Positions 538 to 61,276 of a DNA stretch of 64,000 nucleotides are shown one piece after another. Under the pieces are notes generated by a model, which saw only the letters and a program-made list of their open reading frames with translations, was not told the DNA's origin and did no database searches. A program made the position numbers and the translations under genes. The DNA lies in contig JANQAD010000001.1 of NCBI GenBank assembly GCA_024707205.1, positions 496,001-560,000 of the forward strand, read 5' to 3'. The DNA is from Demequina sp. GTDB lineage: Bacteria; Actinomycetota; Actinomycetes; Actinomycetales; Demequinaceae. Positions within the stretch are counted from its first letter, which is position 1, and each line of letters begins with the position of its first letter.

Positions 538-2228
538 ACGGCCTGCTTGATACGGCCCGACGCTGGGTTGAGGATGACCCCGACGCTCGCACCCGCGCGG
601 AGCTGGAACAGCTGATCGCCGCCGCCGAGGGCGGCGACGAGGAGGCTCTCGCGGACCTCGAGGATCGCTTCAAGGGCACCTTGGAGTTCGGCACGGCCGG
701 GCTGCGCGGCGCAGTCGGCGCAGGACCCAACCGCATGAACCGCGCCGTGGTGATCCGAGCGGCAGCTGGGCTTGCGCGCTATCTCAGCGACACCGTCGGG
801 CCGTCTTTGGTGGTCATTGGCTACGACGGGCGCCACGGCTCCACCGACTTCGCCGTGGATACCGCGGCGGTCATGACCGCCGCCGGGCACGAGGCGAGGC
901 TCATGCCGCGAATGCTGCCAACTCCCATGCTCGCCTTCGCGACGCTTGCCCTCAATGCCGACGCCGGCGTGATGGTGACGGCGTCGCACAACCCTCCGCG
1001 AGACAACGGATACAAGGTCTACCTGGGAGGACGCGCGGTTTCCGACTCGGGGCAGGGGTCGCAGATCGTGCCGCCGTACGACGGCGAGATCGCCTCGCGC
1101 ATCAAGGCGGTGCCGTCCGTGCTGGGGGTTCCGCGCGCTGAGGACGGCTGGACGATCATCCCCGACTCCGTCGTCGACGACTTTGTGCACGCCGCGGCCT
1201 CCGTGCGCCCGGACCCCGACGGGCGGCGCGCGAACACGCGCGTGGTCATCACCTCGATGCATGGCGTGGGCTCCGAGTGCATGCAGCGGGCGCTCGCCGA
1301 GGCGGGCTTCACGGACGTGCACGAGGTGGCCGAGCAGGCCGTCCCGGACCCGGACTTCCCCACCGTCGCGTTCCCCAATCCGGAGGAGAAGGGCGCGATC
1401 GACCTCTCGCTCGCGCTCGCTCGCGAGGTGGGGGCGGACGTGGTCATCGCCAACGACCCCGACGCCGATCGGTGCGCCGTCGCCACAGTCATCGACGGCG
1501 AGTGGCGCATGCTCCACGGCGACGTGGTGGGCTCGCTGCTTGGCGAGAAGGTCGCGGCCCACAGGGCGCTGCTGCGCATGGCGCCTGGCTCGCAGGTGCT
1601 CGCGAACTCGATCGTGTCCTCGCGCCAGCTCAAGGCCATTGCCGAACGGCACGGCCACAGCCACGTCAACACCCTCACCGGGTTCAAGTGGATCAGCCGC
1701 GTGCCGGGCCTCGTCTACGGCTATGAGGAGGCGATCGGGTACTGCGTGGACCCCGCCCACGTTCGCGATAAGGATGGGATCAGCGCGGGGACGCTCATGG
1801 CCGTGCTCGTCGCGGACCTCAAGGCCGAGGGCCGCACTCTCTCGGACGCGATCGACGACCTCGCGCGCCAGTACGGGGTCTATCTGACGCGCCAGGTGGC
1901 CGTTCGCTACTCCGATCTGGCCGAGATACCAGCCACGATGGCTCGAGTGCTCGGCGCTCCGCCAGAGCGGCTCGCGGGCTCGGCTGTCACCTCGACCGAC
2001 GACATGGGCGAGGGATTCGCTGGACTGTTGCCGACCACGGGCCTCCACCTTGCGACCGCGTCAAACGCGCGCGTCATCATCCGGCCCTCGGGAACCGAGC
2101 CCAAGGTCAAGGCGTACCTCGAGGTCATCAAGCCGGTGGCCGACGGCGATGTCGCCTCCGCGCGGGCGCTCGCCGAAGAGGAGATGATGGCTTTGGAGGC
2201 CGACGTCAGGGCGGTCTTGGGCGTCTAG
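534..2228 (+). CDS. phospho-sugar mutase (phosphoglucomutase/phosphomannomutase family), probable phosphopentomutase
   Basis: 564 aa, full length for the alpha-D-phosphohexomutase superfamily. The four signature sites are present: the phosphoserine loop TASHNPPRDNGYKVY (Ser about 151), the metal loop DPDADR (about 308-313), the sugar loop GYEEAIGY and the C-terminal phosphate loop RPSGTEPKVK. The ATG overlaps the stop of the PNP gene by 4 bp. Members of this subgroup (human PGM2 for example) work as phosphopentomutases, and no separate deoB is visible here, so conversion of (deoxy)ribose-1-P to the 5-phosphate is the likely job; this is inference from context. The mutase class itself is certain. 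It converges on the aldehyde dehydrogenase-like gene with only 4 bp between the stops. Confidence 0.9.
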   Translation: MNGLLDTARRWVEDDPDARTRAELEQLIAAAEGGDEEALADLEDRFKGTLEFGTAGLRGAVGAGPNRMNRAVVIRAAAGLARYLSDTVGPSLVVIGYDGRHGSTDFAVDTAAVMTAAGHEARLMPRMLPTPMLAFATLALNADAGVMVTASHNPPRDNGYKVYLGGRAVSDSGQGSQIVPPYDGEIASRIKAVPSVLGVPRAEDGWTIIPDSVVDDFVHAAASVRPDPDGRRANTRVVITSMHGVGSECMQRALAEAGFTDVHEVAEQAVPDPDFPTVAFPNPEEKGAIDLSLALAREVGADVVIANDPDADRCAVATVIDGEWRMLHGDVVGSLLGEKVAAHRALLRMAPGSQVLANSIVSSRQLKAIAERHGHSHVNTLTGFKWISRVPGLVYGYEEAIGYCVDPAHVRDKDGISAGTLMAVLVADLKAEGRTLSDAIDDLARQYGVYLTRQVAVRYSDLAEIPATMARVLGAPPERLAGSAVTSTDDMGEGFAGLLPTTGLHLATASNARVIIRPSGTEPKVKAYLEVIKPVADGDVASARALAEEEMMALEADVRAVLGV

Positions 2229-2232
2229 GCGG

Positions 2233-3088
2233 TCAGATCAGCGCCTTCGTGTGCCAGACCGTCTTGGTCTCGGTGAAGAAGGTGATGCGTCCGAGCGTTG
2301 CGGCGGGCACCCCCGGCTCCGGCGGAAGTACACGCTTGAGCGTCTCCGCCGCGGTGATCTGCAGGTCCACCCAGTCGAGGTTGCCAGCGCCCGCGAGGTC
2401 GAGCGCATTGACATCGGCGTGGCCCGCGAGCCACGGCGCAATCTCCGCCGCGGAACCCGTGAGGATATTCACCACCCCCGCCCGGCACGTCGCTCGTCGC
2501 GAGCACCTCCGAGAGGGTGATGGCGCTCAGCGGCGAGGCTTCGCTCGCCACCACGACCACAGTATTGCCCGCGACGAGCGCGGGGGCGATGACGCTCACC
2601 AGGCCGAGCAGCCCCTGGCCCTCGGGGGCGATGATCGCGACCACACCCGTCGGCTCCGGAACCGAGATGTTGAAGTACGGGCCGCTCATGGCGTTGCCGT
2701 TGCCTGCCACCTGCACATATTTGTCGGCCCAGCCCGCATACCAGACCCAGGTGTCGATAGCCGCCTCCACCTGCTTGAGGGCGGCCGACACCGTGATGCC
2801 GTCGGTGAGCTGAAGCTCCTCGACAAACTGGGCCCTGCGCCCCTCGAGCAGCTCGGCGATGCGGTACAGCACCTGACCGCGGTTGTACGCCGTGGCGCCC
2901 GACCAGCCCGCGAAGGCCGCCCGCGCGGCAACGACCGCGTCTCTCGCGTCCTTTCGTGACGCCTTCGCCGCGTTCGCGAGGAAGGCTCCCTTGGCCGTCG
3001 TGACCTCGTAGACGCGGCCCGACTCGCTGCGCGGGAAGGCACCGCCGATGTACAGCTTGTAGGTCTTGGGAATGGGGAGGTGGCTCAT
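2233..3088 (-). pseudogene. short aldehyde dehydrogenase-like protein lacking the catalytic domain, frameshifted
   Basis: Starts MSHLPIPKTYK, its ATG overlapping the stop of the full-length ALDH as ATGA. The N-terminal ALDH fold is clear (YAGWADKYVQ, APALVAGNTVVV). Reading through one extra C in the run 2475-2479 restores SDVPGGVVNILTGSAAE and a natural end TKTVWHTKALI at 2233. Corrected length is about 284 aa, against about 480 for a normal ALDH. The ELGGK and GQxC catalytic region is absent, not just shifted, so even the intact protein would have no catalytic cysteine. Similar short partners follow a full ALDH after deoC in other actinobacteria (from memory). It is probably a structural or regulatory subunit. 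Without correction the frame ends at 2225. Confidence 0.72.
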
Positions 3089-4548: not shown

Positions 4549-4552
4549 GGTC

Positions 4553-5566: not shown

Positions 5567-5648
5567 AGTGTCTCCTTGCGTCGCATGCCTCCAGCCTATG
5601 CCGGTGGCGAGCTGGTTGCGCCGCGAACGTCGATTGCCGGATATGGGG

Positions 5649-15142: not shown

Positions 15143-16225
15143 CTACGAAATGGTGCCCGACGCTGTGGTACCGGCGTCCTTGACCAGTTGGCTCGCCGAT
15201 TTGCTCACCACGAGAATCGCGTCCTCCGTCTGGACCACGACAACATCGCTCAACCCGACCACCGCGAGGGTGCGCTCAGCACCTATCGACACCACGCCGT
15301 CGGACCCAACGGCGCGAACCTCGCCTTCGCCCGCGATGCGCACCACGCCGTCTGCGTCAGGGGTGGCGAGCTCGGCCAGGGAGGCGAAGTCGCCGATGTC
15401 GTGCCAGTCGAACGTGGACGGCACCACCGCGACTCCGCCCTGGGCGGCGATTGGCTCCGCGATCGCGTGATCGATCGAGATGCGCTCGAGCTGCGGCCAT
15501 TCGCGCGCGAGCACCTCGGGACCCTCCGCGGTGTCCCAGGCACGCGCAATTCGGCGAATCCCCGCCTCGAGCTCAGGGTGCAGGGCCGCGAGATGATTGA
15601 GCAGCACGTCGGTGCGGACCACGAACATGCCCGCGTTCCACACGTAGCCACCGTGAGCGACCATGGCGCGCGCGGTGTGGACGTCCGGCTTCTCGGCGAA
15701 CTTGTTGACGCGCGATACGCCAGGCGAATGGGGCACGCCCACCTCGATGTAGCCGAACGCCGTGGACGGGGCGGTGGGCTCGATGCCGATGGTCACCAGG
15801 AAGCCTTCGCGGGCGGGGCCGACGGCCGTACGCACCGCGGCGCGGAACGCGACGTCGTCGCGAATCACGTGGTCCGCGGCGAACGAGCCGATGATGCGCG
15901 GGCCGTGCCGCTGCTCCACCACCGCGGCCGCGAGCGCGATAGCCGCCATCGAGTCCCGCGGGCTTGGCTCTGCCAGGAGGTTCTCGCGGGCCAGGGTTGG
16001 CGCCTGGGCGAGCACGGCGTCGGCGTGCAACGCACCCGTGACCACCACCACCTCCGGGGTGAGGGGTGCAAGCCGCGCGAGCGTGTCCTGGAGCAGGCTG
16101 CTCCCTGTCCCAAGGAGGTCAAGCAGGAACTTGGGGCGATCGGGGCGCGACAGGGGCCACAGGCGAGAGCCGATGCCCCCTGCCGGGACGACGGCGACGA
16201 AGTCTGCGAGCGGCGTTTCGGTCAT
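15143..16225 (-). CDS. manC: mannose-1-phosphate guanylyltransferase
   Basis: 360 aa nucleotidyltransferase making GDP-mannose from mannose-1-phosphate and GTP. Motifs: AVVPAGGIGSRLWPLSRPD.PKF (nucleotide loop), AADHVIRD, GIEPTAPSTAFGYIEVG, NKFAEKPD, WNAGMFVVR and DWHDIGDF. There is no C-terminal isomerase domain, as usual for actinobacteria. The ATG at 16225 is preceded by TAATCT and 7 bases, so it is probably leaderless. It is divergent from sdhC. The last codons contain one copy of the dispersed 11-mer (15155-15165). Confidence 0.9.
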   Translation of the reverse strand: MTETPLADFVAVVPAGGIGSRLWPLSRPDRPKFLLDLLGTGSSLLQDTLARLAPLTPEVVVVTGALHADAVLAQAPTLARENLLAEPSPRDSMAAIALAAAVVEQRHGPRIIGSFAADHVIRDDVAFRAAVRTAVGPAREGFLVTIGIEPTAPSTAFGYIEVGVPHSPGVSRVNKFAEKPDVHTARAMVAHGGYVWNAGMFVVRTDVLLNHLAALHPELEAGIRRIARAWDTAEGPEVLAREWPQLERISIDHAIAEPIAAQGGVAVVPSTFDWHDIGDFASLAELATPDADGVVRIAGEGEVRAVGSDGVVSIGAERTLAVVGLSDVVVVQTEDAILVVSKSASQLVKDAGTTASGTIS

Positions 16226-21833: not shown

Positions 21834-21859
21834 GACGGACATTCTTCCAGGTCCAGCCA

Positions 21860-21974
21860 CCGCGGCCCTCCTCCACACAATCTGGCTCGCCACAGCGTCG
21901 GGCATTTTCAAGATGCCTGGTAGATCGGCTTGGCTCAAGTGGAGCAGCGCAAATTGTGTGGAGGAGGGCCGCGG
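21860..21974. repeat. 115-bp intergenic element A with perfect 22-bp terminal inverted repeats
   Basis: Arms at 21860-21881 and 21953-21974 are exact reverse complements (core CCCTCCTCCACACAAT / ATTGTGTGGAGGAGGG). The 71-base interior contains one inverted copy of the dispersed 11-mer (21893-21903); a second copy lies just outside (21990-22000), and the two extend to a 13-bp inverted pair. It sits 43 bp downstream of the tatB stop and upstream of trpS. No coding capacity or transposase. Same length and arms as element B at 37751. Confidence 0.85.
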
Positions 21975-22016
21975 CGGCCACCTGGGCATGCCCGACGCTG
22001 GGGCCGGGTGGCGCAG

Positions 22017-22363: not shown

Positions 22364-23713
22364 CTAGTTGCTCGGAGTCGGCTGCGGAGTGGCGTTCTCG
22401 TCACCGAAGTTGACCTCGGAGTCGGCGGCGAGCGTCACCGTGATGTCCTGCTCCTTGCCGTCGCGCTTGACGGTGAGCACAACAGTGTCGCCCGGTGCCT
22501 TGGCCCGGATCGCGATGATCAGGTCCTCGGAGCGCGCGATGGCACGGCCGTCGATCTTGGTGATCACGTCACCGGGCTTGATGCCCGCCTGCTCCGCGGG
22601 GCTGCCGGGGATGACGCCGGGCTGGCCGTTGACCTCCTTGGCCACGAGCACGCCCTCGCCCTGGTTGCTCGAGTCGACCATGATGCCGATCACCGGGTAC
22701 GTGGCGTGACCCGAGGTGATGAGCTCTTCCACCGTGCGGCGCACCTGGTTCGACGGGATCGCGAAGCCGAGGCCGACGGAGCCCGCCTGCCCGCCAGTCG
22801 TGTTCGTGGACGCGATGGCGGAGTTGATGCCGATGACCTGGCCCGCGGAGTCCAGCAGCGGACCGCCCGAGTTGCCGGGGTTGATCGCCGCGTCGGTCTG
22901 GATCGCGTCGATGAACGCGTTCCCGTTGCCGGTCTCGGACGACGTGGTGACCGCGCGGTGCAGCGCGGAGACGATGCCCGTGGTGACCGTGGAGTCAAGG
23001 CCGAGCGGGGAGCCGATAGCGATGACGGGGTCGCCGACGACCACCTGGGAGGAGTCGGCGAGCGTGAGGGGCGTGAGGCCGGTCTTGTCGACCTTGAGCA
23101 CGGCGAGGTCGTAGTCCTCGGTGCTGCCCACGACCTTGGCATCCACGACGGTGCCGTCGGAGAACAGCACCTTGATGGCACCATCGGCGCCGTCGATCAC
23201 GTGGTTGTTGGTGACGATGTAGCCGTCCTGGCGGACCACGAAGCCGGAGCCCGTGGAGGTGCGGCCCTCCGAGCTCGACGCCTCGATCGACACGACGGAC
23301 GGGAGCACGGCTGCCGAAACAGCGGCGACGGATCCCGCCTGAACGTCGAGCGACGAGTCGTGCTGGTTGGCCGCGGGCAGGGCCGCAGTGGTCGACGCTG
23401 GGGTCGACTCGCCGTTGAGCTCGTCGTAGGCGAAGGCCGCGCCAAAGCCGCCGATGGCGCCGAGAATCAGGGCGCCGCCCGCGATCGCGGTGACCGCGCC
23501 CGCGCCGATGCGTCCGCGAGCCGGCTTGTCCTCTACGCGCGTCTGCGGCGCCTGCGTGACGACGACGTCTGGTGAGGTCGCGGGAACGGCGGCCACAGCG
23601 TCGGGCGCCTCCTGGACCGCAATGCTGGAGGGCGACGCGGGCTCGGCAGGTGCGCCAGCGTCGGAAACCTGCGCCGAGAGGTCATCCGGCGAGGCGAAGG
23701 GGTTGTCAGACAT
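22364..23713 (-). CDS. htrA: HtrA-type membrane-anchored serine protease with PDZ domain
   Basis: 449 aa. About 85 cytoplasmic residues, one transmembrane helix (AVTAIAGGALILGAIGGFGAAF region), a linker, then a trypsin-like domain with His in VTNNHVIDGA, Asp in EDYDLAVLKV and Ser in INPGNSGGPLLD, and a C-terminal PDZ domain (GSPAEQAGIKPGDVITKIDG). It degrades or refolds damaged envelope proteins and is expected to belong to the sigma-E stress regulon. It lies just after the anti-sigma gene. The N-terminal tail holds one 11-mer copy (23596). Confidence 0.92.
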   Translation of the reverse strand: MSDNPFASPDDLSAQVSDAGAPAEPASPSSIAVQEAPDAVAAVPATSPDVVVTQAPQTRVEDKPARGRIGAGAVTAIAGGALILGAIGGFGAAFAYDELNGESTPASTTAALPAANQHDSSLDVQAGSVAAVSAAVLPSVVSIEASSSEGRTSTGSGFVVRQDGYIVTNNHVIDGADGAIKVLFSDGTVVDAKVVGSTEDYDLAVLKVDKTGLTPLTLADSSQVVVGDPVIAIGSPLGLDSTVTTGIVSALHRAVTTSSETGNGNAFIDAIQTDAAINPGNSGGPLLDSAGQVIGINSAIASTNTTGGQAGSVGLGFAIPSNQVRRTVEELITSGHATYPVIGIMVDSSNQGEGVLVAKEVNGQPGVIPGSPAEQAGIKPGDVITKIDGRAIARSEDLIIAIRAKAPGDTVVLTVKRDGKEQDITVTLAADSEVNFGDENATPQPTPSN

Positions 23714-26108: not shown

Positions 26109-26154
26109 TGTGATCTCCTCGCGGGTAGGCGCGCCTGTGCGCGGCAATGTCACC

Positions 26155-26160
26155 ATTCTA
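26155..26160 (-). promoter_or_regulatory. -10 element of the DUF3117 gene
   Basis: TAGAAT on the minus strand, about 46 bp before the start codon. The same hexamer stands upstream of typA and ychF. The rest of this 155-bp intergenic region (26109-26263) holds one 11-mer copy at 26245 and nothing else recognised. Confidence 0.45.
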
Positions 26161-26263
26161 CCCGTGGTCGGGCGCCGCCAAAAAACCGCGGCCCCTCAAG
26201 CAACCGCACTCGTGAGGAACCCGACACGACCGCTCGGCCGCCAACAGCGTCGGGCCGCCTTGC

Positions 26264-27028: not shown

Positions 27029-28111
27029 TTAGGAAAGCCAGGCCGCGAGCGCCACGCGGCAGTTCTCGATATCGCTGACGGGGCACGCCTCGTTGTCTGC
27101 GTGCGCGAGTTCGGGATCACCAGGGCCAAAGTTCACGGCGGGGATGCCCAGTTCGCCGAAGCGTGCCACGTCCGTCCAGCCAAGCTTGGCTCTGGGTTCA
27201 CTGCCCGACGCTGTGGTCACCGCTCGCACGAAGTCCTTCGCGATCTCGGCGTCCAGTCCCGGGCGTGCGCCCGCGGAGAGGTCGGTGAAGGTCAGGTCCC
27301 AGTCGGACAGTCCGGCCCCGGAGACCACGTGCTTGAGCCGGTCCTGGGCCTCCTCGATGGACCACGCAGGCGCAAAGCGGTAGTTCACGGTCACGATGCA
27401 CTCGTCGGGCACCACGTTGCCAGCGATGCCGCCGCGAATGCCCACCGCGTTCAGGCCCTCGCGGTAGTCGAGGCCGTCAACGGCGATGGTCTCTGCCGGG
27501 TGGGCCGCGAGCTTCGCGAGCAGCGGCGTCGCGCCGTGAATCGCGTTCACGCCCTTCCACGAACGCGCAGAGTGAGCCGCCACTCCCCCGATCCGCACCT
27601 CCGCGCGCAGGGTGCCGTTGCATCCGCCCTCGATCTGGCAGGAGGTTGGCTCGCCGAGGATCGCGAAGTCTCCCGCGAGCCACTCCGGGTGGTTGCGCGC
27701 CACCCGGCCCAACCCGTTGCGACTGGCCTCAACCTCCTCGAGGTCGTAGAAGATCCAGGTGACGTCGTGACGGGGCGCGGAGAGTTCCACCGCGAGGGAC
27801 AGGGCAACGGCGACGCCCGCCTTCATGTCCACAGATCCGCGGCCCACCAGCGAATCGCCGTCGAGGCGAGCGGGAACGTTGTTCTTGATCGGCACCGTGT
27901 CGAGGTGCCCGGCGATGAGGATGCGGTGCTCGCGACCGAGCGCGGTGCGGGCGAGCACCGCGTTGCCGTCTCGAAGCACCTCGAGGTGCGATGCGCCGCG
28001 CAGCGCCGCCTCAACGGCGTCGGCGATTGCTGCCTCGTCCCCGCTCACGGAGGGGATGTCGATGAGGTGCCGCGCCAGCTCGGCGACAGGGGCGTGCGCG
28101 TCCAGCTCCAT
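27029..28111 (-). CDS. dapE: succinyl-diaminopimelate desuccinylase
   Basis: 360 aa M20 metallopeptidase that releases L,L-diaminopimelate and succinate in lysine and peptidoglycan synthesis. Metal and catalytic regions: [33 protein letters not shown] and [14 protein letters not shown]. The ATG at 28111 is preceded by TAGGCT and 7 bases (leaderless type). It is divergent from dapD across 49 bp, so the two successive enzymes share one control region. Confidence 0.92.
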
Positions 28112-34273: not shown

Positions 34274-35331
34274 GGCGTCGCCGTTGGGGCCGGTGAGCGT
34301 GGTGGGGCGGCGAAGACGTGCGCGTTGAGCGCCGCGGCAAGGGTCTTGGCCTCCTGGGTGGTGACGTCGGGGTCGGACACCTCCGCGGTCAGCGCGACCG
34401 GCTGCTTCGTTGGCCAGACCGCGAGGATGTCCTCGCGCGCGGCATTGCGATCCACCGTGATGGCCTGACTGCCCTCGGTGACGACGGCCGAGGCACCCGT
34501 GATCGTCACGCTAGCGTCGGCCCTGTTGGAGTCGAGCTGATCCGCGGCGGCGTTCACGGCGTCGGTGAAGGCCGGCTCCGCCACGGCGACAACCACATCG
34601 TGGTCGGTGCCCTCGCCTCGCCAGCGGTGCCACAGCACCGACGGGTCCAAGGTGAAGCCGCCCGCAGCGCTCACCGTGGCGTCCACATCCACGCTGAGCC
34701 CGGCTGTGGTCGCGTCCATCGTCGTCGACGCATCCCCCGCGGTGAGCGTGATGGGCGTCTGTGCCGCGATGGCGGCGAAGTCCCGCGTGATCTTGGTCGC
34801 CTCCGCCACCGTGTCTCCCGCGGGAACCCCCTCGATCGTGGTGCCGCTCGGGATCGCGTCGCGAAGGAAGAATGCGGCCGCCCCGTAGGCGACGAGCACG
34901 ATGGCGAGCACTCCCAGCCAGCCGAGCCACCGGCGGCGCTTCTTTGGCGGGTTGGAACCGAGCGCGATCGCGAACGACTCCGTGGGAGTCGGGTCCGTGG
35001 GATCGGGCTCCGGGACGGGGTACGGGGAGATCGCTGTGGCCGACGCCTCCTCCTGAACGGCGATCTCGCTCGTCTCCACCGCTTCGGGAGTCTCGAGAAC
35101 CTCGACCGCCGCCGGAGCCGCCAATGAGGCGCGCAAGGGCGAGATCGCCGGCGTCTCAACCACCGCCGTCTCAACCACAGACTGCTCGGCGGTCACCGCG
35201 GCGGCGACAACAGCGTCGGGCCTCTCGCGTGCCCCAGTGCGCTTGCGGAGCCCGCGGTGGGCGGGCGAGTTGCGGCGCGCGGCTATGCGGCGCTGGGCCT
35301 CAGCGTTGCGGTCGTCACGCGCCCGGGACAT
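34270..35331 (-). pseudogene. VanW-family protein, N-terminal part (membrane anchor and repeat domain)
   Basis: From the ATG at 35331: about 175 cytoplasmic residues rich in Ala, Glu and Pro, one transmembrane helix (WLGWLGVLAIVLVAYGAAAFF), then an extracytoplasmic region with TIEGVPAGDTVAEA and an LDSNRADASVTITG block like the YoaR-type repeats that precede VanW domains. The frame runs into AAPPRSPAPTATP and stops at 34270, out of frame with the VanW half. The start overlaps the upstream membrane-protein gene by 17 bp. The N-terminal tail carries one 11-mer copy (35211). Confidence 0.7.
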
Positions 35332-37678: not shown

Positions 37679-37730
37679 GCGAGGGCTCGTTTCGTTTTTC
37701 TTGGGTGTCGGCGGCGGTTGCCAGCGTTCC

Positions 37731-37736
37731 ATTCTA
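37731..37736 (-). promoter_or_regulatory. -10 element of typA
   Basis: TAGAAT on the minus strand, giving a leader of about 45 nt that is A-rich near its end (AAGAAAAACGAAACGAG). The inverted-repeat element B starts 15 bp further upstream. Confidence 0.45.
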
Positions 37737-37750
37737 CCGGGCGCGCCCCT

Positions 37751-37865
37751 CCGCGGCCCTCCTCCACACAAATTGGGTTGCGGGGCACGTGGTCGTGTGC
37801 AAAGTGCCTGGTATACAGACTGCCCACTTTCTGGACCGCCCGGATTGTGTGGCGGAGGGCCGTGG
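37751..37865. repeat. 115-bp intergenic element B, relative of element A
   Basis: Left arm 37751-37771 is identical to the left arm of element A over 21 bases; right arm 37844-37865 is its reverse complement with two changes. The total length equals element A, and TGCCTGGTA is shared inside. A direct copy of the 11-mer follows at 37868-37878. It lies about 50 bp downstream of the lipoprotein stop and upstream of typA. Confidence 0.85.
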
Positions 37866-37914
37866 CTGCCCGACGCTGTGGCCGGTTCCTGCGAGCACGG
37901 CAACACCGCGGCTG

Positions 37915-38631: not shown

Positions 38632-39348
38632 CTATGGCCGGGTAGTGCGGAACGCGTGGGTGACGTAGGGCATGGCAACGGCGTCCGTGCCGAGAGCCGC
38701 GAGCACCTCGTCGACGCCCGCGTCGATGCGCGCGCGAAAATCTGCATCGCCAGCGATGTAGTAACTGCGCGAGCGGACCATCGCGCGCACCTGCTCGTGC
38801 GTCATGGGGTTCTCCCAACGGAATACTCGCTCCTCGAGCGGGCCGAAGGGCGCTCCGACCTCAACCTCGTCCGAGGAGATCATCGACTCGGCCTTGGAAG
38901 ATCCCATCGCCTCGCCCAGCGCGGCCACCCAGTCAACAGACTCGTCGCGGACGTTCCAGATGAGGCCCAACACTCCCCCAGGAGTCAGCACGCGGGCCGC
39001 CTCCGCGCTTGCGGCCGGAACATCCACCCAGTGCCACGCCTGGCCGAACGTCACCGCGCCCACGCTCCCATAATCGAGCGGAAGGGACTCGGCTGTACCG
39101 ACAGCGTGCGGCACCTGGGGAAGGTCCGCGGCAAGCGAGGCAAGCATCGCGGCGTCTGGGTCTATCGCCGTGACGGCGAAGCCCTGGCGTGCTATCTCGG
39201 CGGTGAGCTTGCCGGTGCCGGCGCCAGTGTCGGCCACCGCCCCGGTGACGCCGCCGAGCAACCAGGCCACAGCGTCGGGCGGATAGCTTGGGCGGCCTTT
39301 GGAGTAGTCCCCGGCAGCGGTGCCGAATCTGGTTCCGAGGGAGCTCAC
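38632..39348 (-). CDS. class I SAM-dependent methyltransferase
   Basis: 238 aa. Motif I VADTGAGTGKLTAEIA, acidic loop AIDPDAAML, post-I GTAESLPLDYGSV, and FGQAWHWVD, typical of the UbiE/Tam-like group. The GTG at 39348 is preceded by TAGGCT and 6 bases (leaderless type). The substrate is not predictable. One 11-mer copy lies in the N-terminal part (39270). Confidence 0.85.
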   Translation of the reverse strand: MSSLGTRFGTAAGDYSKGRPSYPPDAVAWLLGGVTGAVADTGAGTGKLTAEIARQGFAVTAIDPDAAMLASLAADLPQVPHAVGTAESLPLDYGSVGAVTFGQAWHWVDVPAASAEAARVLTPGGVLGLIWNVRDESVDWVAALGEAMGSSKAESMISSDEVEVGAPFGPLEERVFRWENPMTHEQVRAMVRSRSYYIAGDADFRARIDAGVDEVLAALGTDAVAMPYVTHAFRTTRP

Positions 39349-42776: not shown

Positions 42777-43789
42777 GTGTTCACCGCCGGCTCCTGCTGG
42801 GTGATGCAGTGGATGCCGCCACCTCGGGCGAAGATCTCCCTTGCGTCGACGGTGACGACCTCGCGCCCTGGGTAGGCGGCGGCGAGGATCTCCCTGGCCC
42901 TGGCGTCGGCCGCGTGCTCGCCGAAGCCGCACGCGATGACGCCGCCGTTGACCACGTAGTGATTGACGTACGAGTAGTCCACGGGCCCGTGCTCGTCGCT
43001 GAGCGTGTCAGGGGCCGGCAGCGGGATGACCTCGAGGTCGTTCGCCGTGAGGTGATCGGCGAGGTCGAGACTCACCTGGTAATCGGGGTGTTCGGGGCTC
43101 TCCTGGGCGTGGAGCAGCACGGCACCCGAGTCCGCGAAGCACGCCACGATGTCCACGTGGCCGCTCGTGCCGAAGTCGTCGTAGTCCCTCGTGAGCCCGC
43201 GGGGCAGCCAGACGGCGCGCGTCGCGCCGATGGTTCGTGCCAGCTCCCGCTCAACCTGCTCGCGACTCCAGCCGGGATTGCGTCGCTGCCCCAACTGCAC
43301 GGTGTCGGTGAGGAGCACCGTGCCACGCCCGTCCACGTGGATGCCGCCGCCCTCGTTGACCAGATCGCTCGAGATGAGCTCGGCGCCCGCCGCCTGAGCG
43401 ATGACCCGGCCAAGCCGCGCGGACTTGTCCCACACGGCCCACTCGTTGGCGCCCCACCCGTTGAAGACCCAGTCCACGGCGCCGAGCGTGCCGGGCCGGT
43501 CCGCGTCCACCACGAAGGTGGGGCCTACATCGCGCGCCCAGAACTCGTCTACGGGTGCCTCAAGCAACTCAAAGTCACCGCCGAGCAGGTCCCGCGCCCG
43601 CGCCGTCTCGCTCGGATCCGCCACCATGGTGACGGGCTCGAACTCGGCGACCGCGAGAGCTACCGAAACCCACGCCCTATACCCGGCGGCACGTTCGGCG
43701 TCACTGGACCCCAGCGTCGGGCCCTCGCAGGGGAAGACCATCCACGTGCGGGCGTGCGGAGCGGACTCCGCGGGCATGCGCCAGGCCAT
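42773..43789 (-). CDS. aguA: agmatine deiminase (peptidylarginine deiminase family)
   Basis: 338 aa. Catalytic landmarks: DEFWARDVGPTFVVD, LVNEGGGIHVDGRGTVLLTD, GTSGHVDIVACF (His) and the nucleophile region GGGIHCITQQEPA near the C-terminus. It converts agmatine to N-carbamoylputrescine and ammonia. It is coupled by GTGA to the amidase. Start at 43789; an ATG four codons later is possible. Confidence 0.88.
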   Translation of the reverse strand: MAWRMPAESAPHARTWMVFPCEGPTLGSSDAERAAGYRAWVSVALAVAEFEPVTMVADPSETARARDLLGGDFELLEAPVDEFWARDVGPTFVVDADRPGTLGAVDWVFNGWGANEWAVWDKSARLGRVIAQAAGAELISSDLVNEGGGIHVDGRGTVLLTDTVQLGQRRNPGWSREQVERELARTIGATRAVWLPRGLTRDYDDFGTSGHVDIVACFADSGAVLLHAQESPEHPDYQVSLDLADHLTANDLEVIPLPAPDTLSDEHGPVDYSYVNHYVVNGGVIACGFGEHAADARAREILAAAYPGREVVTVDAREIFARGGGIHCITQQEPAVNT

Positions 43790-46735: not shown

Positions 46736-47404
46736 TTACGCATTCACCTCGCGCCACGTGCCCTCGGACACGACCTCCTCGACGCCGTCCACCACCTTGA
46801 TGGCCGTGTTCACGTCGGTGAGGTAGGCGCGGCGGCCGATCATGGACGCCCACTTCTCGCAGATCTCCACGGAATTGCCGTCGCCGCCGTCGAAGGCGAC
46901 GTGCGGGCACAGCGAAAACGGCACCAGGCCCAGGGTGGTGTGGTCGCCGTCGGGAGGCGGCCAGCTCTCGAAGGCTGCGCCGATGCTGGGCGTCATCACC
47001 ATGGATCCCGCGCTGAGGCCCACATAGGTGAGGTTCTCGAGCTCCGGCAGCAGCCGGTCCAGGCCGCACGCGCGCATGCAGTGCGCGAGGAACAGCGCGT
47101 CGCCGCCGTCCACGAGCAGCACATCCGCCTCGCGCAGCACGGGCTCCCAGCGGTCCTGCCCCACAGCCGCGAGCGCGGCGATCTCGAACAGCCCGGCGCT
47201 CTTCCATCCCAACTGGATCATGGGAGCGCGCTCCTCCTCGCCGGCGACCACCCGCCGGGCTTGCACGGCGCTGCGCGGGTTGGCATGCAGCGCCGTGGGC
47301 GCGAAGAGCGCGGTGCACTCCTCGATGGGCTTGCCGAGCAGGCCCACGAGCGCGGTTCGGATCGAGTCGTTCCTGACCCCGGAGTCCGTCAGCAGGAGCT
47401 TCAT
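46736..47404 (-). CDS. peptidase E-type serine hydrolase (S51 family)
   Basis: 222 aa. Class I glutamine-amidotransferase-like fold with Ser nucleophile in LTYVGLSAGSMVM, preceded by LLVDGGDALFLAH; SLCPHVAF carries a conserved His. The family includes aspartyl dipeptidase PepE and cyanophycinase. The ATG overlaps the mug stop by 4 bp, so it follows the glycosylase in one transcript. Confidence 0.8.
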   Translation of the reverse strand: MKLLLTDSGVRNDSIRTALVGLLGKPIEECTALFAPTALHANPRSAVQARRVVAGEEERAPMIQLGWKSAGLFEIAALAAVGQDRWEPVLREADVLLVDGGDALFLAHCMRACGLDRLLPELENLTYVGLSAGSMVMTPSIGAAFESWPPPDGDHTTLGLVPFSLCPHVAFDGGDGNSVEICEKWASMIGRRAYLTDVNTAIKVVDGVEEVVSEGTWREVNA

Positions 47405-48030
47405 GACTCCTGTCTACTCTGCGCGACCGCCCACACGCTCGCCCAGCGCTCGGCGAGGGAGTCGATGTTCTCGTGAGCGTTGAGCCCACTGGGCTGCGGC
47501 ACCACGAACAGGGTGACGCCTGGCGGCCACCCGGCCACAGCGTCGGGCAGCTGCTCACCCAACTGCGCCTTGGGGAGGCCGAACGCCGTGCGGAAGGCCG
47601 TAATGCCTGCTATCGCCACGACTTTGGGGCGGAGTTCGCGGAGTCGCTCCACGAGCCTGGCGCCGCCGTCGCGCAGCTCGGCAGCCGTGAGCTCGTCCGC
47701 GCGCACCGTGGCGCGGCCAACGAGATTCGTGATGCCGATCCCGCGCTCGGCGAGGTGGCGCTCGTCTTCGGCGCTGAGCCCGCGCGAGGCGTCGATCTCG
47801 TAATCCGTGAGCCCCCCGCGTTGCAGCGACGGCCAGAAGCGGTTGCCCGGCCGCGCGAAAGGCGCGTTGACGGCCGCGGTCCACAGGCCGGGGTTGATGC
47901 CCACGATGAGTAGGCGCAGGCCCGACGCTGGGAGGACGTCGTCGATCGCGTCGGGGTTGTCGGTGGCAAAGCGGGCGAGGTCGGCGCGGGTTGGGCGCGC
48001 GCCGGCGAGTGGGGAGGGGCGGCGGGTCAC
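47401..48030 (-). CDS. mug: mismatch-specific DNA glycosylase (G:T/U)
   Basis: 209 aa. Uracil-DNA glycosylase superfamily, Mug type: GINPGLWTAAVNAPFARPGN and the C-terminal VPQPSGLNAHE, corresponding to the canonical GINPG and NPSGLN motifs. It removes uracil or thymine mispaired with guanine. The GTG at 48030 overlaps the GNAT stop (GTGA); a 12-residue longer form is possible. Two 11-mer copies lie inside (47538, 47920). Confidence 0.87.
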   Translation of the reverse strand: MTRRPSPLAGARPTRADLARFATDNPDAIDDVLPASGLRLLIVGINPGLWTAAVNAPFARPGNRFWPSLQRGGLTDYEIDASRGLSAEDERHLAERGIGITNLVGRATVRADELTAAELRDGGARLVERLRELRPKVVAIAGITAFRTAFGLPKAQLGEQLPDAVAGWPPGVTLFVVPQPSGLNAHENIDSLAERWASVWAVAQSRQES

Positions 48031-50682: not shown

Positions 50683-50690
50683 GGGCGGCA

Positions 50691-50749
50691 ATTCTACCGG
50701 CGCCCGACGCTGCCACCACCTATCGCGCTTGCCTCGCCTCGCGTACGGT
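50691..50749. promoter_or_regulatory. divergent leaderless promoters of ychF and the small acidic ORF
   Basis: TAGAAT (50696-50691, minus) is 8 bases before the ychF GTG. TACGGT (50744-50749, plus) is 6 bases before the ATG at 50756. One 11-mer copy (50702-50712) lies between them. Confidence 0.45.
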
Positions 50750-50755
50750 GGCGGT

Positions 50756-50985
50756 ATGAGCGAACTGGCGAACATCTTTGGAGGGGGCGCCGAGCACGCC
50801 CACGAGCAGCAGGCACGAGAGAAGATCCTTCCGGCGCCGCCCCCATCTCTGCTGACGCGGCGGACGATAAGGCCAAAGTGCCGGGAGTGGACATCCCCGC
50901 GATCGGGCTTCCGGGTGAGGCGGTCGTGTACGAGCCGTTCAAGCTCGAAGAGCCCGAGGACGACGAAACGCCGAGTGGAAGCTGA
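50756..50985 (+). pseudogene. small acidic hypothetical protein, frameshifted
   Basis: ATG at 50756 gives MSELANIFGGGAEHAHEQQA; after one missing base near 50837-50845 the sequence continues ISADAADDKAKVPGVDIPAI and ends in an acidic tail at 50985 (about 76 aa when corrected). A leaderless-type -10 and protein-like composition in both halves support a real gene, but no family is recognised. Convergent with the oppDF gene. Confidence 0.42.
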
Positions 50986-51181: not shown

Positions 51182-52984
51182 CTACGCGTTGGCCGCCGCG
51201 CGGCGGCGCTCCTGCTCCGCCGGATCCGGCACCGGAACGGCCGCGATGAGCCGCTGCGTGTACGGGTCCTTGGGGTTCTGGATGATCTGCGCCGTGGTGC
51301 CCTGCTCCACGATGAGGCCGTCCTTCATAACCGCGATGCGGTCGGACAGCTGCTCCACGACGGCAAGGTCGTGGCTCACGAAGAGGCAGCCGAACCCGTG
51401 CTTGCGCTGCAGATCCGTGAAGATCTCCAGCACGCGCGCCTGCACCGAGACATCCAGTGCCGAGGTGGGCTCGTCGGCGATGAGCAGCGTCGGCTCCAGG
51501 GCGAGCGCGCGGGCGATGCCAACGCGCTGACGCTGACCGCCGGACAGCTCGTGCGGATACCGGTTGCGGAAGTTGCGCGGCAACTCCACCTGGTCCATCA
51601 GCTCAGACACGCGCGCCACGCGACGGTCCTTATCCCAACCGGCCAGCTGCATCGGCTCGGCGATGGACTGCCCGATGGGCCACCGCGGGTTGAGGGATGA
51701 GCCCGGGTCCTGGAACACGATGGAGAACTGCTTTCGCAACTCCGCGAGATCGTGACGCGAGATCCCCTTCATGTTCTTGCCCACGACGGTGAGGTCACCC
51801 TCGGCCACGGGGAGCAGGCCAACGGCGGCACGGCCGACTGTGGTCTTGCCGGAACCGGACTCGCCGACGAGCGAGACGATCTCGCCTTCCTTGATGACCA
51901 GGTCGATGCCCTTGACCGCGCGGAACGCTGGGTTGCGTCCCTGCTTGGGGTACTCGATGACGAGGCCCTTGGCCTCGAACACCGCCTTCGCCTTCTTAGG
52001 CACCCGGTTGGGGTCCTTGTCCTTGAGCGTGGAGCCGAGGTGCGGGACGGCGCTCAGGAGCGCCTTCGTGTACTCGTGTTGCGGCCGCTCGAAGATGTCC
52101 TTTGACGAGCCCTCCTCGACGATCCGCCCGTCCTTCATGACGATGATGCGGTCGGACATGTCTGCCACCACGCCCATGTCGTGCGTGATGAGCACAATGC
52201 CGGCGTTGATGCGCGACTTAAGGTCACGGATGAGGTTGAGGATCTCCGCCTGGACGGTGACGTCGAGGGCGGTGGTGGGCTCGTCCGCGAACAGCAGGGC
52301 CGGGTCGCACGCAAGCGCCTGGGCGATCATCGCACGTTGCCGCTGGCCGCCAGACAACTGGTGAGGATACGAGTCGAAGCGCCGCTCCGGCTCCGGGATC
52401 TCAACGAGCTTGAGTAGCTCGATGGCGCGATTCTTCGCGTCCTCCGGCCGCATCCCGGTGTGCTCGCGCAGCTCCTCGACGATCTGGAAACCCACCGTGA
52501 GCACGGGGTTCATCGCGGTCATCGGCTCCTGGAAGATGACCCCGACCTCGGGTCCGCGCACAGACGTCAGCTTGCGCTGCGGCAGTCCCACGAGTTCGCG
52601 GCCGCGCAGCTTCGCCGAGCCAGAGGCCCGTCCGTTGCGCGGCAGCAGGCCGATGATCGACATCGACGACTGCGTCTTGCCCGAGCCGGACTCGCCGACA
52701 ATCGCGACGACCTCACCGGCCTTGACCTGGTAACTGACATCGATAGCCGCCGGGACCCAGATTCCATCGACATAGAAGTCGACGTTGAGGTCCTCGACGT
52801 CGAGCACGATGTCGCCCACCTCAACGGCGTGCGAAGCGCCGATGACGGGAACCTCGCCAATCTCAGGGACCGCGTCAGGCGTCACTTCGCCGCCAATGAC
52901 CTCCGCGGGGCCCGACGCTGTCGTGACCTCTTCCGCCGAAGCGGCCGCGGCGTCGGGCTGCGTCTTTACTTTGCGGGGGCTCAC
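51182..52984 (-). CDS. dipeptide/oligopeptide ABC transporter, fused DppD-DppF ATP-binding protein
   Basis: 600 aa with two complete ABC domains. Domain 1: GESGSGKTQSSMSIIG, LSGGQRQRAMIAQAL, LLFADEPTTALD. Domain 2: GESGSGKTTVGRAAVG, LSGGQRQRVGIARAL, LLIADEPTSALD. Both carry oligopeptide-type C-terminal extensions. The N-terminal 60 residues are an acidic, low-complexity extension containing one 11-mer copy (52910). The ATG overlaps the dppC stop by 4 bp. It powers uptake by the two permeases upstream. Confidence 0.93.
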   Translation of the reverse strand: MSPRKVKTQPDAAAASAEEVTTASGPAEVIGGEVTPDAVPEIGEVPVIGASHAVEVGDIVLDVEDLNVDFYVDGIWVPAAIDVSYQVKAGEVVAIVGESGSGKTQSSMSIIGLLPRNGRASGSAKLRGRELVGLPQRKLTSVRGPEVGVIFQEPMTAMNPVLTVGFQIVEELREHTGMRPEDAKNRAIELLKLVEIPEPERRFDSYPHQLSGGQRQRAMIAQALACDPALLFADEPTTALDVTVQAEILNLIRDLKSRINAGIVLITHDMGVVADMSDRIIVMKDGRIVEEGSSKDIFERPQHEYTKALLSAVPHLGSTLKDKDPNRVPKKAKAVFEAKGLVIEYPKQGRNPAFRAVKGIDLVIKEGEIVSLVGESGSGKTTVGRAAVGLLPVAEGDLTVVGKNMKGISRHDLAELRKQFSIVFQDPGSSLNPRWPIGQSIAEPMQLAGWDKDRRVARVSELMDQVELPRNFRNRYPHELSGGQRQRVGIARALALEPTLLIADEPTSALDVSVQARVLEIFTDLQRKHGFGCLFVSHDLAVVEQLSDRIAVMKDGLIVEQGTTAQIIQNPKDPYTQRLIAAVPVPDPAEQERRRAAANA

Positions 52985-55535: not shown

Positions 55536-55558
55536 GTGGTTTCCGATGTAAGGGACGT

Positions 55559-55593: not shown

Positions 55594-55614
55594 CCATCAT
55601 GACCTACCGATCAA

Positions 55615-57426: not shown

Positions 57427-57589
57427 ACTCGACTCCTTCCTGTTGGTCACGCGTCCTCTGTGCCTTGTTGACACCCTGCCAAGACGCGCGTGAACCCCGG
57501 GGAGTTTCCCCGTAGTACCTGAATGGTATGAAACCTTAGGTAACAATCAGATTACTTGCGGTCACGAGTTCGCGTCGGGTGAGAGGAAA

Positions 57590-57605
57590 TGTGACCCAGG
57601 TCACA
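57590..57605. promoter_or_regulatory. CRP-type binding site between dppA and rmuC
   Basis: TGTGACCCAGGTCACA is a perfect match to the TGTGA-N6-TCACA consensus of CRP-family regulators, including mycobacterial CRP. It is 66 bp before rmuC and 164 bp before dppA. A -10-like TACCAT for dppA lies about 70 bp away (near 57530), consistent with activation from an upstream site. The rest of 57427-57670 shows no gene. Confidence 0.55.
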
Positions 57606-57670
57606 ACAAACCCGCGTCCACACGGTCCTTCACGCACGATCGTGTCGGACCCCCATGAAAGAGTCGTCGC

Positions 57671-58990
57671 ATGATCGAAGCAATCATCGCCATTGTGGCC
57701 CTCGCGGCCGGCCTTGTCATCGGGTTCCTGGTGGCTCGCAATGGCAGTTCTGCGGCACTTTCGAAGGCAGAGACCGACGCCGCGGTCGCCCAGGCGAGGG
57801 CCGACGCCGCCGAGGCTCGGGTGGCGGAGGTAACCACAGCGTCGGGCAGGCGGGAGGAAGAACTGCGGGCCGAGCACGAGCGATACGTCGCCCAGGTGCG
57901 CGCGGACCAGGAGGCCCTCAAGACCGAGTTCAAGGCGCTGAGCGCGGAGGCGCTCGAGGCGCAGTCACGGGAATTCCTTGCTCGAGCCGACGAGAGGTTC
58001 ACGCGCGCCAACGAGGCCAACAAGGTGGAGCTCGAGAAGCGCGAGCAGTCCGTGAAACAACTCGTCGAGCCCATGAAGGTCGCGCTCGACGAGGTCAAGC
58101 GGCAGACCACGGAGGCCGACAAGGGCCGGCTGGCAGGGCAGGCCGCACTTGCGGAACAGGTGCGCCAGATGGTCGACGCGTCCTCCAAACTGGACAAGCG
58201 AACCTCGGACTTCATCAACACTCTTCGCCGCTCAGACGTGCGCGGCAACTGGGGCGAGGTCCAGCTCAAGCGCGTAGTCGAACTTTCGGGGATGCTCAAC
58301 CACGTCGACTTCACCGAGCAGGACAACGTAAAGGACAGCGAGGGCAAGAATCTCCGGCCGGACATGACGATCCACCTGGCGGGTGGTCGGTCTATCGTCG
58401 TCGACTCCAAGGTTGCGCTCGCAGGCCTCCAAGAGGCGTTTGAAACCGACGACGAGCGAGTTCGCGTCGAACGCCTTGCGGCGCATGCGCGCCAGTTCCG
58501 CAAGCACATCGACGATCTGGCGAGCAAGAAGTACTGGGAGCAGTTCGATTCTGCGCCGGAGTTCGTCGTCATGTTTGTGCCCGCAGAAGGGTTCTTCCAG
58601 TCTGCGATCGAGCAGGACGACACCCTGCAGGAGTACGCCTTCACCAAACGCGTCGTCATCGCGACCCCGACCACGCTCGTCGCGTTGCTGCGCGCGGTCG
58701 CGCACGCATGGAAGGAAGACGCTCTCGCGAAGAACGCTCAACAGGTGCTCGCGACCGGGAAGGACCTTTTCGACCGCCTCACTGTCATGGGCAATCACCT
58801 GTCGCGTGTGGGGCGCGCCATCGACAGCGCATCAAAGGCCTACAACCAGACGGTCGCATCCATGGAATCTCGCGTCATGGTGACGGCCCGCAAGTTCGGC
58901 GAGATGCAGCACATCGAAGCCGAGCTGCCGCAGCTTGACGTTGTCGAGACCGAGGTCCGCCTGATTGGCGGCCCGGACGAGGACGCCTAG
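57671..58990 (+). CDS. rmuC: DNA recombination protein RmuC homologue
   Basis: 439 aa. One N-terminal transmembrane helix ([19 protein letters not shown]), a coiled coil of about 130 residues ([21 protein letters not shown] on), then the RmuC nuclease-like domain with [33 protein letters not shown] and [14 protein letters not shown]. RmuC limits inversions at short repeats in E. coli. It overlaps the ispH gene end by 4 bp. The coiled coil contains one 11-mer copy (57837). Confidence 0.9.
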
Positions 58991-59949
58991 GAAGCCGCGC
59001 GGGCCTTCATGTCGGCGCGGATCTCGCGCGGCAGGGAGAACATGAGGTCCTCCGTGGCCGTGCGGACCTCCTCAACGTCCACGTAGCCGCGGTCCGCGAG
59101 CGCGTCCAGCAGGTCGCGCACGAGGATCTCCGGCACCGAGGCCCCGGACGTCACGCCGACCGTGGCGACGCCGTCGAACCATGAATCCTGCAGCTCGGTG
59201 GCGCGGTCGATGCGGTGGGACGTACGTGCGCCCGACTGCAAAGCCACCTCGACGAGCCTCACGGAGTTCGAGGAGTTCGCGGAACCCACCACGATCACCA
59301 GATCACATTCCGGCGCGAGCTTCTTGACCGCCACCTGACGGTTCTGGGTGGCGTAGCAGATGTCGTCGCTCGGCGGGTCCTGGAGCGCGGGGAAGCGCTC
59401 GCGCAGGCGGCGTACCGTCTCCATCGTCTCGTCAACGGACAGCGTGGTCTGCGACAGCCACACCACGTTCTGCGGGTCGGGCACCTCAATGCCGTCGACG
59501 TCGTCCGGCGAGTTCACGATGATCGTGTGCTCCGGGGCCTCCCCCGCAGTGCCCTCGACCTCCTCGTGCCCCGTGTGCCCAATGAGCAGGATGGTCTGGT
59601 CCTCGCGGGCGAACCGCACCGCCTCCTTGTGCACCTTGGTGACGAGCGGGCAGGTGGCGTCGATGGTGAGCAGGTTGCGGGCGTCGGCCGCCTCGCGGAC
59701 CGCGGGCGAGACGCCGTGGGCGCTGAAGACCACGCGCGCGCCCTCGGGCACCTCGTCCGTCTCCGAGACGAAGATCGCTCCCCGCTCGCTCAAGGTCTCC
59801 ACCACGTATTTGTTGTGGACGATCTCCTTGCGCACGTAGATCGGCGCCCCGTGCAGCTCGAGCGCCTTCTCCACGGCGATGACCGCGCGATCCACTCCAG
59901 CGCAGTATCCACGGGGGGCGGCGAGCAGCACACGCTTGTCGGTCGCCAT
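58987..59949 (-). CDS. ispH: 4-hydroxy-3-methylbut-2-enyl diphosphate reductase
   Basis: 320 aa. 4Fe-4S ligand cysteines lie in [25 protein letters not shown] and [23 protein letters not shown] and VTSGASVPE complete the site. It is the last enzyme of the MEP pathway, giving IPP and DMAPP. The ATG at 59949 is preceded by TAGACT and 7 bases, with a GGGGGG stretch that might also serve as SD. Divergent from xseA across 31 bp. Confidence 0.94.
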
Positions 59950-59980
59950 GCCCCCCAGTCTACGTGGCACCCTGGTGACC

Positions 59981-61249
59981 ATGACCCTGCCCGACGCTGG
60001 TGCCAGCCTCCCCGAAGCGTCGGCCAGTCTTCCCGCCACGGCCGCGGAAACGACGCGCGAGAGGCCGTGGCCCGTGCGTCACCTGAGCCCCAAGATCGGT
60101 GACTACATCTCGAAGATGGCACCGGTGTGGGTCGAGGGCCAACTGCTCAACGTGAAGCGCTGGAAGCACCTCGTGTTCGTGACACTCAGGGACACCGACC
60201 AGAACATGTCGCTGCGGGCCACCGTGCCGGCCGCGCAGTTCGACGCGCTTGGGCCGGACGTCACGGACGGCTCACGCGTGGTGCTTCACGCGCGTCCCAC
60301 CTGGTATCAGCGCGATGGCTCGCTCACGCTGGACACCAAAGAGATCGCGACCGTTGGCATCGGGGACCTGCTTGCCCGCCTCGAGGCGCTCAAAGAGGCG
60401 CTCGCGCAAGAGGGGCTGTTCGCGCCGGAACGGAAGGTGCCGCTGCCGTTCGTGCCGCGGCTCGTTGGGCTGATCTGCGCCAACCAAGGGGACGCCGAGC
60501 ACGACGTGGTGGAGAACGCGCAGCGGCGCTGGCCGGCGGTGCGCTTCGAGATCCGCCGCGTCACGGTGCAGGGCGCGCGCTGCGTGCCGGAGACCACGGC
60601 CGCCATTCGCGAGCTCGACGCGAATCCGGAGGTGGACGTCATCGTCGTGGCGCGCGGCGGCGGGTCATTCGAGGATCTGCTCCCATTCAGCGATGAGACC
60701 CTCGTGCGCGTAGCGGCGGCGTGTGAGACGCCGCTCGTGAGCGCGATCGGCCACGAGAAGGACAGCCCTCTGCTGGACCTCGTCGCGGACTACCGCGCGT
60801 CCACGCCAACCGACGCAGGCAAGCGCATCGTGCCCGACGCCGCGCAGGAGCTCGCGGGCGTCGAGTGGGCGCGCGAGTCCATGGCGCGGGCGCTGCTCAA
60901 TCGCGTGGCGCGCTCCGCCCACGAGGTCGCGACCCTCGCCTCTCGCCCGGTGCTTGCGCGCCCCGCCGCGCTGCTGGCCCCGTTTGCGGATGCCGCCACC
61001 GCACTCCATGAGCGATCGGGGCGGGCGCTGGTCGGCGTCATGCAGGTCGTCGACGCAACGGTGCGCGAGACCGTCGCCACGCTGCGCGCGCTGAGCCCGC
61101 AGGCGACACTCGACCGCGGCTTCGCCGTGGTTCAGGACGCCAAAGGCGCGGTGGTCAGGGATCCGGACGCCATTGCCGAAGGCGCGCCATTGCGCCTACG
61201 GCTGGCGCGCGGCGAACTCGCCGCACGCGCAGTGAAACCCGGCCGCTGA
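59981..61249 (+). CDS. xseA: exodeoxyribonuclease VII large subunit
   Basis: 422 aa. N-terminal OB fold ([21 protein letters not shown]), then the catalytic core: [48 protein letters not shown] and [12 protein letters not shown]. It degrades single-stranded DNA with XseB. The first 25 residues are a loose Ala/Pro/Ser tail holding one 11-mer copy (59989). ATG at 59981. Confidence 0.93.
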
Positions 61250-61276
61250 CCTTCAGCCCCAGCGTCGGGCCTGCTG

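Follow-up and report, generated by a model that had tools for sequence, protein, structure and literature searches.

A probable DNA uptake sequence with dialects in the actinomycete genus Demequina

In the available excerpts of the literature, uptake sequences are spoken of for members of the Pasteurellaceae and Neisseriaceae (PMC7811141, PMC1939737, PMC12616744). According to the excerpted part of Frye 2013 (PMC3630211), the DNA uptake sequences (DUS) of Neisseriaceae come as dialects that have an invariant core and follow phylogeny, and S. muelleri is a genome with two dialects. For the uptake signal sequences (USS) of Pasteurellaceae, with their Hin and Apl types, the excerpt of PMC12616744 describes a receptor that was long unknown and is predicted to be a minor pilin, and the coevolution of dialect and protein was analysed there over the family. 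This study concerns a 64,000-nucleotide stretch of the genome of a Demequina sp. (Actinomycetota; GCA_024707205.1, contig JANQAD010000001.1, positions 496,001 to 560,000), here referred to as the window, in which a word of 11 bases (the 11-mer) recurs on both strands. The 11-mer is one of five dialects, seen in 34 sampled genomes, of a motif that spans the genus, and it is probably this species' form of a DNA uptake sequence similar to those of Neisseriaceae and Pasteurellaceae and separate from them in origin.

The motif resembles the Neisseriaceae DUS in that it is short, non-palindromic, present in hundreds to thousands of copies and the most over-represented word of the genome, and also in its dialects with an invariant core, in a genome with two dialects (G018) and in its company of a type IV pilus and ComEC. 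It differs in its core (CGAYGC instead of CTG), in a conserved stretch of about 20 bases, in being GC-rich and in belonging to Actinomycetota; moreover, close inverted pairs are not enriched here, and the scanned pilins have no ComP match above the cut-off. With the Pasteurellaceae USS it shares a core with a weaker downstream part, multiple dialects (the USS has two) and a large number of copies, whereas the USS has the core GCGG and T-rich downstream tracts in place of CGAYGC and a GTGGTCG-like stretch, and is found in another phylum. By its core sequence and receptor it falls into neither of the two families; it may work like a DUS, and there is a good chance that it arose independently. 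HIP1 of cyanobacteria, a palindromic octamer, is highly iterated within genes as well as outside them; the Demequina motif is likewise a short word repeated inside and outside genes, but it is asymmetric, longer and split into dialects. No report of an uptake sequence in Actinobacteria was found among the matches listed in open-licence literature, subscription papers and preprints being outside this scope.

Abundance, form and placement of the motif

The 11-mer occurs 622 times in its own genome, a single contig of 2,538,242 bases (306 forward, 316 reverse), and its reversed pattern five times (two and three on the respective strands). Several of the results below were obtained on a sample of 464 kb with 67.6% GC, made up of the window and of 20 stretches, each of 20 kb, from all around the chromosome. 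A count against a Markov model of order 5 had been suggested in the initial annotation of the window; on this sample, rather than on the whole genome, it gave 109 copies vs 4.23 expected. The same annotation had located 18 exact copies in the window, nine forward and nine reverse, all of which were recovered at the same coordinates and on the same strands, and its estimate of fewer than one copy by chance agrees with dinucleotide shuffles of the window, which contained 0.20 copies on average and two at most, with none of 100 reaching 18.

Among the 109 copies, conservation on the 3' side extends to about +20 and reads T/G, G, G, C/T, C/G, G/A, ..., T, while on the 5' side the adjacent base is biased to G or T and the next base more weakly so. 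The 3' extension proposed earlier for the window copies is thus real, but looser than claimed: TGG follows in eight of the 18 copies (as TGG(C/T)C in five of those eight), and GGG in four. The over-represented single-base variants of the 11-mer chiefly concern its second base (G, T), its third (A, 7 vs 1.7) and its last two; mutants of the core, i.e., variants at 0-based positions 3-8, show no excess, being near chance at about 17 vs 20. For a relaxed core, G[CGT]CCGACGCT, the sample count is 225, or roughly 1,200 per genome by extrapolation. Another word, GGTACCACTG, recurs at about 1.782, 1.898, 2.027-2.032 and 2.148 Mb of the same genome, often at steps of about 267 bases; since genes for repetitive proteins (identified by inspection) contain or adjoin it at 2.03 Mb, it is probably a protein repeat.

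A purpose-made gene caller based on codon usage placed 80 of the sampled copies in genes (42 sense, 38 antisense) and 29 between genes. As the PDA frame accounts for 35 of the 80 and the antisense ASG frame for 25, the motif might be taken to follow from base composition, from codon pairs or from a conserved peptide like PDAV, but there is practically no chance of this. Synonymous-codon shuffles that kept the proteins and the codon usage left a mean of 1.75 copies (maximum 4 in 40 shuffles) where 80 are observed, more than a quarter of the copies are intergenic, the order-5 expectation is exceeded as given above, and the relatives behave alike: when each was counted with the 9-mer of its own dialect, 32 of 33 beat the largest of 20 synonymous shuffles (sum 689 vs 136), the narrow passes being G035 (18 vs 15) and G004 (16 vs 13). 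Codons and proteins therefore do not explain the motif. All six reading frames are used, every frame on both strands, so that the earlier proposal of a constraint on the DNA rather than on the peptide holds, and an enrichment due to codon pairs in one frame, which the initial annotation had named as grounds for dismissing its reading, is ruled out. For the own genome, a codon or peptide origin was ruled out by the synonymous shuffles, the intergenic copies and the Markov comparison.

The copies prefer tolerant places, as had been noted for the window. Intergenic copies make up 27% of the total (29 of 109), though intergenic DNA represents 11.3% of the sample (p=1e-5), and 29 of the 80 genic copies fall within a tenth of the gene length from either end (p=7e-4). 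In genes below 66% GC the excess is 142 copies per Mb, vs 486 in the rest. This would be in line with recent foreign DNA that does not carry the tag, but the ratio of observed to expected differs less (13 vs 21), and motif density has no trend with gene conservation. Three of the 20-kb stretches hold a single copy; ten genes were scanned in two of these, where an exopolysaccharide-type cluster and sugar transport together with an endonuclease-like gene were found.

In the window, the same type of gene calling gave 12 genic and six intergenic copies:

555..565, + strand, in 534-2228 (+, phosphoglucomutase-like), sense, ARRW frame
15155..15165, + strand, close to the 3' end of 15143-16225 (-, ManC-like), antisense, TASG
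21893..21903, - strand, intergenic (21843-22016), in the direction opposite to the copy at 21990
21990..22000, + strand, intergenic (21843-22016)
23596..23606, - strand, in 22364-23713 (-, trypsin/PDZ), sense, PDAV
26245..26255, - strand, intergenic (26109-26263)
27203..27213, + strand, in 27029-28111 (-, M20 peptidase), antisense, TASG
35211..35221, - strand, in 34270-35331 (-), sense, PDAV
37868..37878, + strand, intergenic (37679-37914)
39270..39280, - strand, in 38632-39348 (-, methyltransferase), sense, PDAV
43712..43722, - strand, in 42773-43789 (-, peptidyl-arginine deiminase), sense, PTLG
47538..47548, - strand, in 47401-48030 (-), sense, PDAV
47920..47930, + strand, in 47401-48030 (-), antisense, PASG
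50702..50712, + strand, intergenic (50683-50886)
52910..52920, + strand, in 51182-52984 (-, named OppDF in the initial annotation), antisense, TASG
57837..57847, - strand, in 57671-58990 (+, RmuC), antisense, TASG
59989..59999, + strand, in 59948-61249 (+, exonuclease VII large subunit), sense, LPDA
61260..61270, - strand, intergenic (61250-61276)

Pfam backs the earlier gene names for the manC-like, htrA-like, M20 peptidase (dapE-like), methyltransferase, peptidyl-arginine deiminase (aguA-like) and RmuC genes; the gene at 34270-35331, previously called VanW, has no Pfam match at 1e-6, and the scan left out 'mug' (47401-48030) and oppDF. The closest named relatives of the 51182-52984 protein come from Demequina sp. 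(75% identity) and from a Demequinaceae MAG (76%). An intergenic repeat that contains GGCCCTCC(T/G)CCACACAA and the inverted copy of it adjoins motif copies at window positions 21856-21978 and 37748-37865, and one half of it is also present at genome position 1,528,981.

Relative to dnaA at 1,088,877, with the terminus assumed to lie opposite for the assignment of replichores, 57 sampled copies are on the leading and 52 on the lagging strand (p=0.70), which confirms the strand balance that had been held against Chi and the FtsK-orienting polar sequences (KOPS). These octamers are over-represented, dispersed short words as well, and both are polar along replichores, whereas the Demequina motif is balanced relative to dnaA and has dialects. 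It could still be read as a Chi-like site modulating a RecBCD/AdnAB-type nuclease, or as a KOPS-like guide for FtsK, given its dispersed excess, a mean distance of about 4 kb between exact copies that resembles the spacing of Chi in E. coli, and a slight excess with the leading strand when replichores are defined by the sign of the GC skew (64 vs 45, p=0.08), the skew being weak and in disagreement with dnaA on strand placement. The chance of this is nevertheless very slim in view of the balance relative to dnaA and between sense and antisense copies, and five dialects inside one genus would be unexpected for a Chi site.

Dialects across the genus

The exact 11-mer is abundant in only two of the 44 genus genomes, namely the own genome and G027 (164 copies), while the other 42 contain 0-24. 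The dialects were surveyed in 34 genomes, comprising the own genome and samples of 20-120 kb from each of 33 relatives, by means of k-mer counts; a mixture-model motif fit was swamped by the core and then by codon periodicity. The most enriched 10-mer contains CGATGC or CGACGC in 30 of the 34 samples, G012, G023, G027 and G043 being the exceptions, and the genus-wide motif is roughly GS[AC]CGAYGCNGTGG, with CGAYGC as the common core. Within the preselected word set NNCGAYGC, the best 8-mer is always [CG][AC]CGAYGC, namely GCCGATGC in 17 of the 34 genomes, GACGATGC in 12, CCCGACGC in two, GACGACGC in two and GCCGACGC in one, and its excess is small in G004, G012, G027 and G043. On the 3' side of the core, a GTGGT-like enrichment returns in several dialects. 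Two dialects coexist in G018, with the A and C forms in similar number.

Whole genomes were counted with GGMCGATGCG, which covers the two commonest dialects. This word occurs 899+878 times (=1,777) in G010, 836+817 times in G015 and 658+666 times in G016, compared with 39, 44 and 25 copies of its reversed form. The density is about 590/Mb in G010 and at most about 64/Mb in 273 sampled genomes of the same order outside the genus; this outside comparison covers GGMCGATGCG only, and pooled loci of other genera, which were dominated by syntenic orthologues and shared genes, were left unused. The reversed form is a lenient control, since outside the genus GGMCGATGCG often reaches several times the number of its reversed form (177 vs 22 in G249 and 107 vs 10 in G072, with 28 vs 57 in G047). 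Control ratios alone therefore overstate the excess, and the weight of the case falls on the contrast between genera and on the shuffles of synonymous codons. A 14-base form, GSMCGAYGCNGTGG, counted within the genus only, exceeds its reversed control in all 44 genomes, from 12 vs 2 in the incomplete G037 to 551 vs 11 in G026. Two further words were encountered in the relatives: CGGGGGAG is a second over-represented short word in the samples of G009, G014, G018 and G027, and GATGCGGT, in the samples of G021 and G032, has TGCGGT in common with the Haemophilus-type USS as given in the excerpt of PMC12616744, probably by chance.

A tree of 21 genomes was derived from PilB, PilT, PilC and AroC (1,705 columns; FastTree, midpoint root, branch supports not considered). 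The dialects follow its clades in part, with neither GACGATGC nor GCCGATGC being restricted to a single clade. Two groups that lie apart have GACGATGC, G001/G002/G016 are distinguished by GCCGATGCG, and G005/G007 carry GCCGATGC with C or T after it; G017, their neighbour, has GCCGATGC too. From this pattern, lineages seem to alter their dialect one base at a time. There is turnover of the sites as well: in alignments of the pilus genes and their neighbours, 45 out of 68 site columns are occupied in a single genome only, and the sharing of sites of the same dialect is confounded by relatedness. Given this turnover and the lack of conservation in the flanks past about +20, the repeat-seeded motif considered in the initial annotation finds no support, and a mobile origin was rejected on the same two grounds.

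Two other explanations were weighed. The motif may be bound by a nucleoid protein or another organiser of the chromosome, and the dialects would then have come about as the DNA preference of this protein drifted from lineage to lineage. Hundreds to thousands of asymmetric sites of about 20 bases, randomly spread over genic and intergenic DNA, are compatible with it, as is a fixed core with drifting edges. This is unlikely, as no clear pattern towards ori or ter is seen in the 21 sampled stretches, site positions mostly differ among relatives, and the known chromosome-architecture motifs are, to our knowledge, biased by strand or region. Alternatively, the motif may have been spread by a process of repair, gene conversion or nicking that is biased and has nothing to do with DNA uptake, which would account for a functionless spread and for the turnover of sites. 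Only a small probability attaches to such a process: it would have to be sequence-specific in each species and change its dialect with the lineage, and the fewer excess copies in low-GC genes would be left unexplained.

Pilus and competence genes and the search for a receptor

The search for com and pil genes that had been recommended in the initial annotation found PilB in all 44 genomes of the genus and ComEC in 43, the miss being the incomplete G037. The type IV pilus cluster of the own genome contains pilB, pilT, pilC, pilA, pilD, pilM and pilO at or above the Pfam cut-offs, as well as pilN below the cut-off, and it is flanked by genes that we take, from their sequences, to be mltG/aroE and aroC. 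Three more genes are in the position of minor pilins; the first has a pilin N-terminus above the cut-off, the second one below it, and the third has no Pfam match. The group comEA-comEC-holA lies apart from the pilus cluster, and dprA is present. Across the genus, the gene after pilA has two forms, of about 590-665 amino acids (clade I, G000, G003, G004, G012) or of about 133-153 amino acids (clade II), and the third gene of this post-pilA group varies in size along with it.

A lone pilin gene was found at 1,017,893-1,018,309 of the own genome (L038:16893-17309), and most of the 44 genomes have relatives of it away from the pil locus, with none found in G006, G007, G014, G017, G040 and G042 and an ambiguous case in G037. 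Its lone position is like that of ComP, but the protein is acidic and has no ComP match. Because of this acidity (9 lysine plus arginine residues, 17 aspartate plus glutamate residues), the orphan pilin is only a weak candidate for a receptor.

The uptake sequence hypothesis and its meaning

The initial annotation listed a DNA-uptake-type sequence, a nucleoid-protein site and a repeat-seeded motif as options, and the first of these is the best backed, with genus-wide dialects around a fixed core and with pilus and competence genes throughout the genus; the chance-level number of core mutants also speaks for it. The dialects and the extent of the motif over the genus go beyond what that annotation had noticed. 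The motif, its excess, its strand balance, its dialects, their common core and the pilus and competence genes are observations.

Several results weigh against an uptake sequence. As to the arrangement of copies, their spacing is random (coefficient of variation 0.94 vs 0.97 for random placement), even spacing not being seen, and close inverted pairs of the terminator-like kind are not enriched, with 12 pairs within 150 bp vs 15.7 in random placement, 11 of these 12 being in opposite directions (p=0.006); the slight strand excess defined by GC skew belongs here as well. Motif density shows no trend with gene conservation in what is a weak test. Among the relatives, the motifs of G012, G023, G027 and G043 are weak, G012 does not pass the synonymous-shuffle comparison (5 copies vs 6 in the largest shuffle), the reversed control is lenient as described, and different dialects occupy the same place at only two sites, in pilD and in a putative shikimate-kinase-like gene.

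On the side of the machinery, comEC is spread over two frames in the own assembly and pilC is without its 5' part. There, mltG and holA also look split, and sequencing indels are probably behind the apparent frameshifts of all four genes (G000:C1 2,030,001-2,050,000 and 2,284,001-2,304,000); G011 and G023, too, have a ComEC that is divided in two. Against ComP_DUS, PilA of the own genome scores 22.6 bits, below the cut-off of 27.3, and the orphan pilin has no match, these two proteins being the ones that the scan covered; no receptor was found. Coevolution of dialect and receptor was assessed in 16 genomes by counting alignment columns in which the A and C forms, the two main dialects, differ consistently in each of the two major clades, with the labels swapped in one clade as a control: eleven proteins of the type IV pilus locus gave 18 such columns vs 21 with swapped labels, and the non-pilus control AroC gave 3 vs 0. 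The pilus proteins thus show no signal of coevolution. Lastly, nothing on competence in Demequina was found among the matches listed in open-licence literature.

Under the uptake hypothesis, we infer a bias in uptake, a receptor and a drive. A component of the type IV pilus with a preference for the motif would bind free DNA at the cell surface, and retraction by PilT would deliver it to ComEA; ComEC would then pass a single strand into the cell for recombination by DprA and RecA. As motif-bearing fragments would enter more often, motif-bearing alleles would spread, and the motif would thereby build up in both orientations wherever it is least harmful. A shift in the preference of the receptor would let the whole genome drift to a new dialect, which would then favour DNA of the same lineage. 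The pattern of the motif fits this molecular-drive model of uptake sequences.

Pasteurellaceae and Neisseriaceae are diderm Proteobacteria, Demequina is monoderm, and a methylation-dependent case of uptake exists in Campylobacter. On balance, we lean towards the view that uptake sequences arose independently in Actinomycetota, in the form of a genus tag of roughly 20 bases, with dialects (five seen) that partly hinder gene exchange between species and a pilus-borne receptor from outside the ComP family. If so, an actinomycetotal case with dialects over 34 sampled genomes of one genus would make the evolution of uptake bias testable by comparison, and the many natural dialect swaps could be used for finding the receptor. 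With Demequina taken as monoderm, an outer membrane would not be required for uptake bias. It is anticipated, furthermore, that Demequina would prove naturally transformable, and that DNA tagged with the motif would transform it more easily.

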